The position numbers were made by a program, and so were the translations under genes. A DNA stretch of 64,000 bases from an uncultured Siphonobacter sp. Its GTDB lineage: Bacteria; Bacteroidota; Bacteroidia; Cytophagales; Spirosomataceae. The stretch lies in the NCBI GenBank assembly GCA_913775095.1, contig CAJYIW010000002.1:310001-374000 (forward strand). Direction: 5' to 3'. Under the pieces are notes generated by a model. It worked only from the letters and a program-made list of their open reading frames with translations. It was not told the DNA's origin and searched no databases. Below are positions 53,924 to 64,000 of the stretch, in pieces. How positions within the stretch are numbered: position 1 is the stretch's first letter; the number at the start of each line of letters is the position of its first letter.

Positions 53924-54053
53924 CTTTGTGTTTTGACGATTGCAGGCTAATTTCGCCGAAAGTTTTGTACCAGGTTTTCCAGATTCGTGCCTTTGGCCGG
54001 AGAAAAAGTTCGGAAAATCAGACGTTATTTCCACTCTTCTAATCCCGCGTGTA

Positions 54054-60318: not shown

Positions 60319-61149
60319 ATGAAAAAAGTATGGTTTATTACCGGAGCCTCTAAAGGACTGGGCCTGGCTCTGGTTAAAAAATTACTGGCGGAAGGCCACC
60401 TGGTCGCCGCGACCTCTCGCTCTCGTAGCAGTCTGATTCAGGCCGTAGGAGCATCTTCGTCCCAATTCCTACCCCTTGAGGTGGACCTGACCAGCGAAAG
60501 TTCGGTACAGCAGGCCATTAGGCAAACCCATCAGACTTTCGGAAAACTCGACGTGATCCTGAACAATGCGGGTTACGGGATTGGCGGGAGCATCGAAGAA
60601 CTCAGCGATGCCGAGACACGGACGAGTTTTGATGTCAACGTTTTTGCCACCCTCAACGTCATTCGGAAGGCCATGCCTATTCTGCGTGAGCAACATTCGG
60701 GTCACATCATCAACATTGCTTCCATCGCGGGCTTTGCGGCCAACACCGGCTGGGCTATTTACGCGGCCAGCAAGTTTGCGGTAGTGGGTCTTTCGGAAGT
60801 ATTAGCCGAAGACGTGCGGGACCTTGGGATCAAAGTTACCGTGCTGGAGCCCGGAGCCTTTCGGACGAGTTTCCTGACGGAAGAATCCCTGGTGTTCGCC
60901 CAGGAGCAAATTTCCGACTATCAGTCCATTCGCGATTCTCACGAGAAATACCGACACATGGATGGTACCCAGATCGGTGACCCTGATCGGGCGGCGGACG
61001 TCATTCTTTCGCTGACGGACCTGGAGAATCCGCCCCTTCGTCTGTTCATGGGAAGTGATGCCCACAAGCGGGCTACGCAAAAGGTAGGTCTGCTGCAACA
61101 GGACCTGGACGACTTTAAATCTATTTCTTACTCCACTGATTTTCAATAA
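60319..61149 (+). CDS. Short-chain dehydrogenase/reductase
   Basis: A 276-residue classical SDR. NAD(P)-binding TGASKGLG at 8-15, NNAG at 82-85, catalytic Ser135 region NIASIAG, and Y148/K152 in YAASK. Arg34/Arg36 after the second strand suggests NADP preference. The substrate is unknown; it belongs to the ketoreductase-like branch often placed beside AraC or TetR regulators. It is followed 5 nt later by a close paralogue. Confidence 0.92.
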   Translation: MKKVWFITGASKGLGLALVKKLLAEGHLVAATSRSRSSLIQAVGASSSQFLPLEVDLTSESSVQQAIRQTHQTFGKLDVILNNAGYGIGGSIEELSDAETRTSFDVNVFATLNVIRKAMPILREQHSGHIINIASIAGFAANTGWAIYAASKFAVVGLSEVLAEDVRDLGIKVTVLEPGAFRTSFLTEESLVFAQEQISDYQSIRDSHEKYRHMDGTQIGDPDRAADVILSLTDLENPPLRLFMGSDAHKRATQKVGLLQQDLDDFKSISYSTDFQ

Positions 61150-61154
61150 ATAAG

Positions 61155-61985
61155 ATGAAAAATATATGGTTTGTAACGGGAGCTTCCAAAGGCCTGGGAC
61201 TCTCGCTGGTTAAAAAATTACTGGATCAGGGCTATGGCGTAGCGGCGACTTCACGCACGAAAAAATCATTGCAGGAAGCCGTGGGTGAAAACGATCAGTT
61301 TCTGGCTCTGGAGATGGATCTTTCCAGCGAGGCCTCCGTGCAGCAGGCCGTCAGTCAGACCCTGGAGAAATTTGGCCGCCTTGATGTCGTCGTTAATAAC
61401 GCCGGTTACGGACAGATTGGGAGTCTGGAGGAATTAAGTGATGCTGAATCGAGAGCTAACTTTGAGGTAAATGTGTTTGGGATGCTAAATGTCATTCGGG
61501 CGACCATGCCACACCTGCGGGCTCAGCAATCCGGACGGTATTACAATATCTCTTCCATTGGGGGGTTCTCCGGGGCTTTTCCGGGCTGGGGAATTTACTG
61601 TGCTACTAAATTTGCGGTGGAAGGCCTTTCCGAATCTTTTGCCGAAGAATCAAAAGCATTTGGAGTAAAAGTCACCATCGTCAGTCCGGGATACTTCCGC
61701 ACCGACTTCCTGACCGATAGTTCGCTGGGCTTACCCAACCAACCCATCGACGCCTATCAGGCTGTTCGGGATTCGCAACAAATGCACCGCGAACAAATCA
61801 ACCAGAATCAGCCCGGCGATCCGGAAAAAGCCGTTCAGGTATTAATTGATCTGGCTAAAGAAGAAAATCCGCCCCTGCATTTATTCCTGGGAGCGGACGC
61901 TTACGAAACTGCCGATGCGAAGATAAAGTCCGTTCAGAAAGACATGAACGACTGGAAAAATCTGGCTACTTCGACGGGGTTTTAA
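61155..61985 (+). CDS. Short-chain dehydrogenase/reductase, tandem paralogue
   Basis: A 276-residue SDR with the same length and plan as its neighbour: TGASKGLG at 8-15, NNAG at 81-84, NISSIGG and Y148/K152 in YCATK. The two share long near-identical runs at the N-terminus and diverge in the substrate loop, which points to a recent tandem duplication with shift in specificity. It ends the small operon and a terminator follows. Confidence 0.92.
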   Translation: MKNIWFVTGASKGLGLSLVKKLLDQGYGVAATSRTKKSLQEAVGENDQFLALEMDLSSEASVQQAVSQTLEKFGRLDVVVNNAGYGQIGSLEELSDAESRANFEVNVFGMLNVIRATMPHLRAQQSGRYYNISSIGGFSGAFPGWGIYCATKFAVEGLSESFAEESKAFGVKVTIVSPGYFRTDFLTDSSLGLPNQPIDAYQAVRDSQQMHREQINQNQPGDPEKAVQVLIDLAKEENPPLHLFLGADAYETADAKIKSVQKDMNDWKNLATSTGF

Positions 61986-62181: not shown

Positions 62182-62915
62182 ATGAAAAAAACAATTACTT
62201 CTTTATTAGTATTATCGGTTGCTCTGTTACTAAATAGCAACAAATCTGTAGCCCAGGTCGGCATCGGCACTACCACTCCGCACAGTTCAGCTGCCCTGGA
62301 GATTAACTCTGCCAACAAAGGTCTTTTAGTACCACGCATGAGCGAGGCTAATCGTCCTGCTTCACCAGCCCAGGGTTTACTGATTTACCAGACGGATAAC
62401 AATCCTGGCTTTTATGTCTATACGGCTCGGCATGGACGGCAGTTAGCAGCTTGTCGGTCACTCCCAGCGTATATGTCACCCGGGCTAATTCTACCTATGC
62501 CAATGGCAATCCAGCTCTGGGGCCTTATTTTTTCAACCCTATAGCTGCTCAGTCTTCAGAAGCTAATCTCATTGTCACTAATACTGCCGCTGCGTCTTCC
62601 AGTGGTACCTCTGCAAAGACCGGCTTTATTGTACCTGCTAGCGGCACTTTTACCAAGTTAAAACTGGCCGCTCGTGTAATTTCCGGAGGTGGATCGACAG
62701 GAAATTCCAATACCACGACCATTACGTTATTTAAGAATGGCCAGGCTACGAGCTTGTCTGTACAGGTAACGGTTCCGGTTGCCGTAGGATCTTCCGGAGG
62801 GGCCGTTGCTACCGGTTCAATTGCAGTGAATGCAGGAGATGTAATTTCTTATCAATACACCCAAACGAATCAGGAGCCCAATACGATATTTACCGTTGTT
62901 TTAGAAGGACAGTAA
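62182..62915 (+). pseudogene. Secreted repeat-anchored protein gene with a one-base frameshift
   Basis: Two overlapping frames (62182-62544 and 62451-62915) read as one gene if one base is restored near 62421/62422: the bases TATACGGC would be TATGACGGC, giving FYVYDGSAWTAVSSLSVTPSVYV. The restored protein has about 244 residues: signal peptide MKKTITSLLVLSVALLLNSNKSVAQ, then VGIGTTTPHSSAALEINSANKGLLVPRMSEANRPASPAQGLLIYQTDNNPGFYVY, a module very common in exported Bacteroidota proteins, then a beta-rich C-terminal domain. Either the gene is broken in this strain or a base was lost in sequencing. Function unknown. Confidence 0.75.
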
Positions 62916-62936: not shown

Positions 62937-62970
62937 GAACAGACCCGCTCATTGCTGAGCGGGTCTGTTC
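62937..62970. terminator. Outer copy of the tRNA-Pro terminator
   Basis: A perfect 15-bp stem (62937-62951 with 62956-62970) with a 4-nt loop. It is nearly identical to the hairpin at 63081-63114 (three differences in 34 bases), which lies behind the tRNA-Pro remnant. It can also end the frameshifted gene to its left. Confidence 0.8.
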
Positions 62971-62983
62971 GTGTTAAATCAAA

Positions 62984-63045
62984 ATGGCGGGATTAGAATG
63001 CCGACGGCCAGTTGCGGACGGCCAGTTCCACGACCCCTTGCACCC
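62984..63045 (-). pseudogene. Decayed tRNA-Pro 3' half, outer copy
   Basis: On the minus strand this reads the 3' part of a tRNA-Pro (GGGTGCAAGGGGTCGTGG, then AATCCCGCCAT), but 33 bases replace 5 at the T loop (62995-63027), including a tandem GACGGCCAGTT. Its homology to the inner copy stops at the anticodon loop. It lies 144 bp from the inner copy. Confidence 0.65.
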
Positions 63046-63080
63046 TATATCAGCCATCTAACCAAACTACCCCCAAAAGC

Positions 63081-63114
63081 AAACAGACCCGCTCATTGCT
63101 GAGCAGGTCTGTTT
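63081..63114. terminator. Terminator behind the tRNA-Pro remnant
   Basis: A 15-bp stem with one mismatch-like wobble (63081-63095 with 63100-63114), 4-nt loop and a T run on one side. On the minus strand it lies 8 nt after the tRNA 3' end and would have ended the original tRNA transcript. Confidence 0.8.
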
Positions 63115-63121
63115 TTGTCAA

Positions 63122-63168
63122 GTCGGGATGGCGGGATTCGAACCCACGACCCCTTGCACCCCATGCAA
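63122..63168 (-). tRNA. tRNA-Pro(GGG) 3' half, probable attachment site
   Basis: On the minus strand the last 47 nt of a tRNA-Pro are intact: TTGC-ATGGGGT-GCAA (anticodon stem-loop, anticodon GGG), variable loop, T arm GTGGG-TTCGAAT-CCCGC and the acceptor 3' strand ATCCCGA with discriminator base. CCA is not encoded. The 5' acceptor strand and the D arm are missing; homology stops within the anticodon stem. This is the typical scar left by a tyrosine recombinase inserting at a tRNA 3' end. The intact tRNA is expected at the far side of the element. Confidence 0.75.
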
Positions 63169-63170
63169 TT

Positions 63171-63317
63171 GAAACTGTGATTTTTGATAAATATTTTACA
63201 TAGAATTATTTACAAGTATTTAAAATACAGGTATTTGTGTAATATTGCATAGAGTCCATTTAGGAAATTTAGTCGCAATATGTTCGACTAATGTTCGACC
63301 TAAAACTATGTATAACT
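63171..63317. other. AT-rich region between the attachment site and the integrase
   Basis: No gene. The 9-mer ATGTTCGAC is repeated at 63280-63288 and 63291-63299, and AACTATGTATAACTATG repeats a short unit just before the start codon. These could be arm-type binding sites for the integrase or its excision factor. Confidence 0.45.
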
Positions 63318-64000
63318 ATGTCATTATCAGCTAAGTTTATTGTCAAAGTTAAGAATTCTTCTTATGATTCTGAGCACCCCATACATCTTCAGATTATTAT
63401 TAATCGAAAGAATAAGCTCGTTAGTACTAAAAAGCACACTTCTCTTAAAGATTGGGATAGTAAGACTCAGAGAGTAAAAAAAGGGCATCCACAAGCTCAA
63501 GCAATCAATGCCTTATTAATAAGTATCCGATCAGAAATCGATTATTTCATACTTTCCGCAGGCAGGCAAAACCAAGCAATTTCGTTTGATGATCTTAAAG
63601 CAATTGTTCGAAGGCTAACGGGAGTACAGGAAAAGAAACCAGTTCAAAAGCTATTTGGGTATTTTCAACAACAAGTCGAAGGCTTGAAGGAGAAGGGACG
63701 GTTAGGATATGCCGAAACCTTCATACACACTCATAATAGTCTAAAAGCATTTTTGAATGGAAAAGATATCGATCTGGCTTCAATAAACTTAGAATTCATT
63801 AAACGATATGAGGAGTATTTAATTAAAAGAAATTGTGCTGTAACTACTAGAAGTGTTTATCTGCGAACGTTTAGAACTTTATGGAGAAATGCCATAAAAG
63901 ATGGGGTTTGCTTAGAAACCCATTATCCCTTTAAAGATTTTGAGTTTGGTAAGTATAATAATCCAAGAACCAAAAAGCGTGCGATATCAAAGGAGCAAAT
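63318..64000 (+). CDS. Tyrosine recombinase (integrase), 5' part
   Basis: An open frame from the ATG at 63318 runs off the window after 227 codons. The product starts MSLSAKFIVKVKNSSYDSEHPIHLQIII, an arm DNA-binding (AP2-like) domain seen in Bacteroidota integrases, with WDSKTQRVKKGHPQAQAIN; from about residue 105 the SAM-like core-binding domain follows with KLFGYFQQQVEGLKEKGRLGYAETFIHTHNSLKAFL and VTTRSVYLRTFRTLWRNAIKDG. The catalytic RHRY domain lies beyond the edge. Its position beside a tRNA-Pro half identifies it as the integrase of a genomic island or integrative element. The composition is AT-rich. Confidence 0.9.
   Translation, partial: MSLSAKFIVKVKNSSYDSEHPIHLQIIINRKNKLVSTKKHTSLKDWDSKTQRVKKGHPQAQAINALLISIRSEIDYFILSAGRQNQAISFDDLKAIVRRLTGVQEKKPVQKLFGYFQQQVEGLKEKGRLGYAETFIHTHNSLKAFLNGKDIDLASINLEFIKRYEEYLIKRNCAVTTRSVYLRTFRTLWRNAIKDGVCLETHYPFKDFEFGKYNNPRTKKRAISKEQ

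Follow-up and report, generated by a model that had tools for sequence, protein, structure and literature searches.

A probable 24.1-kb integrative mobilizable element in a tRNA-Pro(GGG) gene of an uncultured Siphonobacter, with a divergent RADAR system and paired 11-bp repeats

Tn6031, NBU1 and NBU2 are mobilizable elements of Bacteroidetes that encode a tyrosine integrase and occupy the 3' end of a tRNA gene, and the element described here shares these traits. Tn6031 of Sphingobacterium is outlined as a 13.0-kb integrative mobilizable element (IME) at the 3' end of tRNA-Pro with tetracycline and streptomycin resistance genes, and NBU1 and NBU2 as elements at tRNA-Leu and tRNA-Ser, respectively, which carry a relaxase and need a conjugative helper (PMC5704250). 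In comparison to Tn6031, by description only, the present element is 24 kb long, bears RADAR, OLD-family and restriction genes and has its own coupling protein. The layout of an intact tRNA, a displaced 3' fragment and an integrase between them is shared with the tRNA islands of Islander, whose class of anticodon-centred attachment sites fits this element, whereas its paired twin repeats are absent from the Islander description in the text available (PMC4383910). As judged by Pfam domains only, the integrase may belong to the IntCTnDOT subgroup, whose Bacteroidetes members combine an arm-binding, a core-binding and a catalytic domain (PMC8138268). The E. coli RADAR system (8fnt and 8fnv; PMC9994260) and the cargo found here both have adjacent RdrA and RdrB with conserved Walker, sensor and deaminase residues, although the pair found here is divergent and far below the NCBIfam cut-offs. 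Elements of this kind are already known; what is worth keeping here is the divergent RADAR cargo together with the paired twin repeats.

The window, a stretch of 64,000 nucleotides, corresponds to positions 310001-374000 of contig C2 in the source genome (G000); coordinates with the prefix C2 refer to the contig and all others to the window. The original prediction had placed a 47-nt 3' half of tRNA-Pro with a terminator behind it close to the window end, and called for an intact minus-strand tRNA-Pro(GGG) gene further to the right. Such a gene was found at C2:397235-397309 on the minus strand, right of the window, and in sequence comparison positions 63122-63168 (47 nt) are identical to its 3' part. 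The identity extends to an end repeat of 51 bp, exact and with zero mismatches, whose left copy occupies 63118-63168 on the minus strand and includes the tRNA part, and whose right copy lies beyond the window end at C2:397231-397281; the copies start at C2:373118 and 397231, with a spacing of 24,113 bp. A 51-bp exact match in the orientation predicted is far beyond what chance would give, and this comparison identifies 63122-63168 as the end that an integrated element has displaced. Searching G000 for the tRNA gave three matches, namely the intact gene, the fragment and 22 nt within a tRNA-Val, and ARAGORN detected no complete tRNA in the whole window, as expected if 63122-63168 is a fragment. 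Behind the fragment, a terminator-like hairpin at 63082-63113 (minus strand) resembles the one behind the intact tRNA in the same-genus genome G002, whose site is empty, and probably terminated the tRNA transcript until the element integrated. A different hairpin, located inside the element, stands behind the rebuilt tRNA at the right edge. The last part of the window very probably holds the left edge of a 24.1-kb IME, inserted in the anticodon region of tRNA-Pro(GGG) by its own arm-binding tyrosine integrase. On integration, the 3' half that the tRNA had before would have been pushed out to the left edge together with its terminator, and the element's copy of the 3' half, with a terminator of its own, would have rebuilt the tRNA at the right edge.

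The site is undivided in two relatives of the same genus, G002 and G003. In G002, the counterpart of window positions 62938-63168 (83%) continues directly into an undivided tRNA and from there into the M1-peptidase-like gene (89%) that in G000 lies beyond the right end of the element. The left-flank match in G002 reaches only 62938 (about 230 bp), and none of 9 window proteins tested matched in its 12.9 kb further left. The G003 match covers about 63014-63168 plus the right flank (84%) and its site is unoccupied; further left, the order of the window proteins at 53940, 55663, 57208, 58043 and 60319 is conserved, with identities of 93, 91, 88, 81 and 74%, respectively. The same order of these five left-flank proteins is present in G001. 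There, a hairpin resembling the element's own stands after the tRNA while the stretch retrieved contained no integrase homologue, a combination that may represent a scar.

The integrase gene predicted 150 bp beyond the fragment and open to the window end was confirmed with an ATG at 63318, 150 bp beyond the repeat. It covers 63318-64000 on the plus strand and continues outside the window, the whole gene being C2:373318-374556 with no internal stop, and its product carries arm-binding (Arm-DNA-bind_5), core-binding (Phage_int_SAM_5) and catalytic (Phage_integrase) Pfam domains, all three above cut-off. The matching repeat, the unbroken integrase and the unoccupied relatives agree with the original view that the window ends just inside an integrative element. 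An integrase search of the genome contigs gave one locus, on a Siphonobacter MAG contig. In the search of the family at E 1e-45, 59/222 genomes matched, with at most 8 candidates per genome scored, and the 30 loci listed, one per genome, were analyzed; one of them (L087) was left out of the upstream comparison because of too little sequence upstream. A tRNA 3' half was present upstream of the integrase on the opposite strand in 29/29 evaluable loci, recognized by a T-arm pattern in 21 and by BLAST to tRNA-Pro in 8, while in the control the T-arm pattern occurred downstream of the integrase in 1/30. In a separate scan, a T-arm pattern proved a poor test and missed intact tRNAs that ARAGORN detected. 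No complete tRNA was detected by ARAGORN in the 30 loci, which places the integrase at the fragment end. The targets, with anticodons read by hand, were Pro (16), Ala (5), Asp (5), Val (2) and Asn (1). On the integrase tree the target tRNA requires 5 changes, the minimum possible being 4, and with midpoint rooting Pro and Ala are present on both sides.

A mere partial tandem duplication of tRNA and terminator, without integration, would account for a terminator and a tRNA 3' half that stand twice in tandem, 144 bp apart, at this edge; but the intact tRNA lies 24 kb away with an exact repeat, the site is unoccupied in relatives and the same layout recurs with other tRNAs at every evaluable integrase locus, which makes this origin of the inner fragment exceedingly improbable. 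As a separate observation, one locus (L079, G169:C8:93579-97784) carries three consecutive tRNA 3' pieces ahead of an integrase, which may be a record of repeated integrations.

The original prediction expected defence, metabolism or transfer cargo to the right, and defence and mobilization genes indeed lie between the repeat copies. The integrase is followed by a 569-aa protein (C2:374561-376270, minus strand), a 376-aa protein (C2:376393-377523), an HTH_17 protein (C2:377606-377884) that is a probable excisionase, a DUF5906 helicase (C2:377961-379163), a CHC2/TOPRIM primase (C2:379364-380224), a 133-aa protein (C2:380237-380638), a BfmA-type protein (C2:380849-381229), a DUF5712/MobB-type relaxase (C2:381244-382098), and a MobC/VirD4-type coupling protein (C2:382131-383867). 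The relaxase scores above the Pfam cut-off for DUF5712 and reaches 185 bits for NCBIfam MobB, under the cut-off of 200; the coupling protein reaches 330 bits in NCBIfam, under the cut-off of 900. No component of a mating-pair apparatus was found among 18 element proteins with Pfam or 17 with NCBIfam, and a coupling protein does not belong to the transfer channel. The 569-aa, 376-aa and 212-aa proteins had zero matches in Pfam, NCBIfam, PADLOC and PHROG, and the 133-aa protein had zero matches in Pfam, NCBIfam and PHROG. For the 376-aa protein, the structure predicted from an alignment of 9 sequences had a mean pLDDT of 42. The gene content reads as that of an IME with its own integrase and relaxase and no transfer channel. 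In the life cycle proposed from this one assembly, the HTH_17 protein would switch the reaction toward excision, BfmA and MobB would nick the circle and pilot it, and the MobC/VirD4-type protein would deliver it to the transfer channel that a conjugative element in the same cell provides. On contig C26 of the same genome there is a conjugation operon with TraG (764 bits), TraJ (363), TraK (196) and MobC (960) above cut-off, TraM, TraN and MobB under cut-off and 3/10 proteins without a match; we infer that it could serve as helper of the tRNA-Pro element. This operon (L063, G000:C26:20001-40000) belongs to the Bacteroidetes type, encodes a MobB and a MobC itself and represents a candidate helper element.

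P4-like satellites have an integrase at a tRNA, an HTH_17-like protein and a primase-helicase that resemble the set found in this element. A phage satellite or defective prophage, moved by a helper phage rather than by a conjugative element, would be in keeping with the HTH_17 protein, the CHC2/TOPRIM primase and the DUF5906 helicase with its sub-cutoff match to a P4-family primase, with the phage DNA primases that helicase and primase match in PHROG, and with the integrase homologues, all below 60% identity, that 76 out of 50,697 phage records contain. Such an origin is nevertheless very unlikely, as BfmA, relaxase and coupling protein are present, virion, packaging or capsid-altering families number zero among the 18 proteins with Pfam and zero among the 9/18 covered by PHROG, and the helicase had no match in the phage records. 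A mobilizable element remains the preferred reading.

The right part of the element encodes an OLD-family ATPase/TOPRIM protein (C2:384777-386720), the 212-aa protein (C2:386997-387635, minus strand), a HEPN protein (C2:387613-388659, minus strand), an XRE-type protein (C2:388774-389223), RdrA (C2:389307-391991) and the adjoining RdrB (C2:391992-394370), a C5-methyltransferase (C2:394449-395789, minus strand) and an HNH endonuclease (C2:395920-396678, minus strand). RdrB residues 159-791 align with E. coli RdrB (8fnv) at E 1.2e-75, and in the alignment H152, H154, H498, E501 and H530 of the E. coli protein correspond to H164, H166, H491, E494 and H523. Only residues 58-377 of RdrA align with the solved chain 8fnt (E 4e-34), and these keep Walker A G69-K70-T71, Walker B D215-D216 and the sensors D247 and R367; the roles of the catalytic, Walker and sensor residues are those given for E. 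coli RdrA and RdrB (PMC9994260). NCBIfam scores were 134 bits against a cut-off of 600 for RdrA and 148 against 800 for RdrB, with strong E-values. The pair appears to be a divergent RADAR with catalytic residues kept and a presumed anti-phage role by ATP-to-ITP conversion upon infection, and together with the OLD-family protein and restriction-modification it would shield the carrier from phages. GC content was 0.49 from the helicase through the coupling protein, 0.28 in RADAR and 0.32 in the restriction genes, with flanks of 0.47 and 0.48; it gives no clean split between backbone and cargo, since the integrase is also low (0.35) and the HEPN stretch high (0.53). RdrB was found at E 1e-6 in 3/222 family genomes, namely G000, G155 (54%) and G118 (32%), and in G155 its neighbour is an RdrA with 49% identity to that of the element; given this rarity, the element shows one route by which RADAR could spread in the family. 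For what is probably a mobile carrier of a divergent RADAR, exact ends, unoccupied sites and a cargo list are now available. Homologues of the XRE-type protein with 67% and 57% identity were also seen in G004 (L044, 17222-17665) and G021 (L042, 1808-2200), in both cases next to the tRNA-Pro(GGG) gene on the side where the element would lie, and no integrase homologue was found there.

Between the fragment and the integrase, a twin 11-bp direct repeat (TGTTCGACTAA / TGTTCGACCTA) is located at 63281-63302 on the plus strand, and a right twin repeat at C2:397168-397185 and beyond. By their position, their pairing and the arm-binding domain of the integrase, the twin repeats are probably integrase arm sites; holding those that flank the core, the integrase would recombine at the anticodon. 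In 24/29 loci, many of which are closely related and hence not independent, a direct repeat of 9-11 identical nt with a period of 11 was present between fragment and integrase, starting 109-112 nt from the fragment toward the integrase, and mononucleotide shuffles equalled its score in at most 6%. The test failed in L077, L081, L084, L089 and L091, in the last of which another repeat outscored the twin and the motif was found by a later pattern search. The motif classes include TGTTCGAC, TGTTTAAAC, TGTTTTAGT and TGTTTACAC.

Two motif patterns run over 15 whole genomes, selected for carrying such an integrase, gave 33 places, and reversed control patterns gave 0. Of these, 23 made up 11 elements whose left and right ends share a contig, one of the ends being triple; these elements were found via the twin repeat itself. 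All 11 had no complete tRNA near the integrase end and an intact tRNA at the other end (Pro 7, Ala 2, Asp 1, Asn 1), with exact end repeats of 43-52 bp. The distance from the left motif start to the end repeat was 111-119 bp, and that from the right motif start to the repeat end was 109-114 bp in 9 elements and 138-139 bp in 2 (Asp and Asn). The other 10 places were unpaired, being contig-broken or single motifs, and the three of them in G006 had no tRNA within 1.5 kb. A more distant tRNA-Pro element in G007 has its own twin motif at both ends, seen by eye; its end repeat was missing in one comparison, where the cut-out had long flanks, and evident in others. A longer motif matched 7 of 291 genomes of the order. 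Twin motifs were additionally noted at L149, L156 and L159 (G125) and L151 (G136), in genomes not among the listed integrase matches; three of the four lie near an intact tRNA-Pro or tRNA-Ala, and they are possible scars of lost elements.

In the literature searched on mobilizable elements, Bacteroidetes, defence, tRNA sites, arm sites and islands of Cytophagales, no title or abstract start describes twin repeats, and this element is likewise undescribed there, which is weak evidence of absence since most subscription papers lie outside the coverage. There is an even chance that this is one of a so far undescribed group of mobilizable elements of Cytophagales type, in which the integrase recognizes a modular address, with twin 11-bp repeats on both sides of the core at a near-constant distance, the repeats staying with the integrase and the core being exchanged between tRNA genes (Pro, Ala, Asp, Asn and Val). 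If so, twin repeats alone would delimit elements and their scars across a genome. The paired repeats provide a sequence rule by which the two ends of a related element can be located, and allow a test of how integrases of one family came to use different tRNA genes.

Homologues of the 376-aa protein, helicase and primase were present behind the integrase in 7/7 TGTTCGAC-type elements (one other genus) and in 0/3 TGTTTAAAC-type elements. A relaxase domain was found in 2/2 candidates tested from related elements and a NikA/MobC domain in 1/1. The cargo in G007 includes a SIR2-like protein in addition to type I restriction. Among 10 hand-picked large proteins from six other elements, PADLOC matched two at E 1e-8, IetA and IetS, both from G121; with 8/10 unmatched, the idea that related elements always carry defence genes was rejected. 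A sister element in another species (G005) shares the integrase (96%), helicase (98.5%), primase (97%) and 376-aa protein (86%), and between its integrase and 376-aa protein the 569-aa gene is replaced by TonB-receptor, DUF4249 and other genes. The G005 contig stops within BfmA, and for the coupling protein only a 41% match and broken pieces were found elsewhere in that genome. Decay does occur in the family, the integrase of the homologous element in G146 being split in two pieces, and the element could be an island integrated long ago that lost excision and transfer and was retained for its defence genes; this is rather unlikely, at perhaps one chance in a few, in view of the intact integrase frame, the mismatch-free 51-bp repeat, the presence of both arm motifs and the 96% sister in another species with different genes beside the integrase. 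A mobilizable element that may still be active is favored.

Outside the element, a second hairpin at 62938-62969 (minus strand) and a decayed tRNA-Pro 3' half at about 62984-63048 (minus strand) with a 29-nt insert form the outer of the two tandem copies. In hand-chosen stretches of G000, G002, G003 and G005, the decayed piece compared with the tRNA 3' half beat 300/300 mononucleotide shuffles in 4/4 same-genus genomes, and compared with the 5' half it did not stand out, 83-258 of 300 shuffles doing equally well. Positions 62938-63081 probably mark where an older element, since lost, had its edge. The outer copy may instead stem from a partial tandem duplication, with which the duplicated hairpins would agree. 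The decayed copy bears a 14-bp unit, once or twice, as a T-arm insert. Further left, overlapping frames of 120 aa and 154 aa at 62182-62915, with no Pfam match, look like one frameshift-broken secreted protein. At 60319-61985 there are two adjoining short-chain-dehydrogenase-like genes of 276 aa each, a likely tandem duplication; in this place a single match was seen in G001 and likewise in G003.
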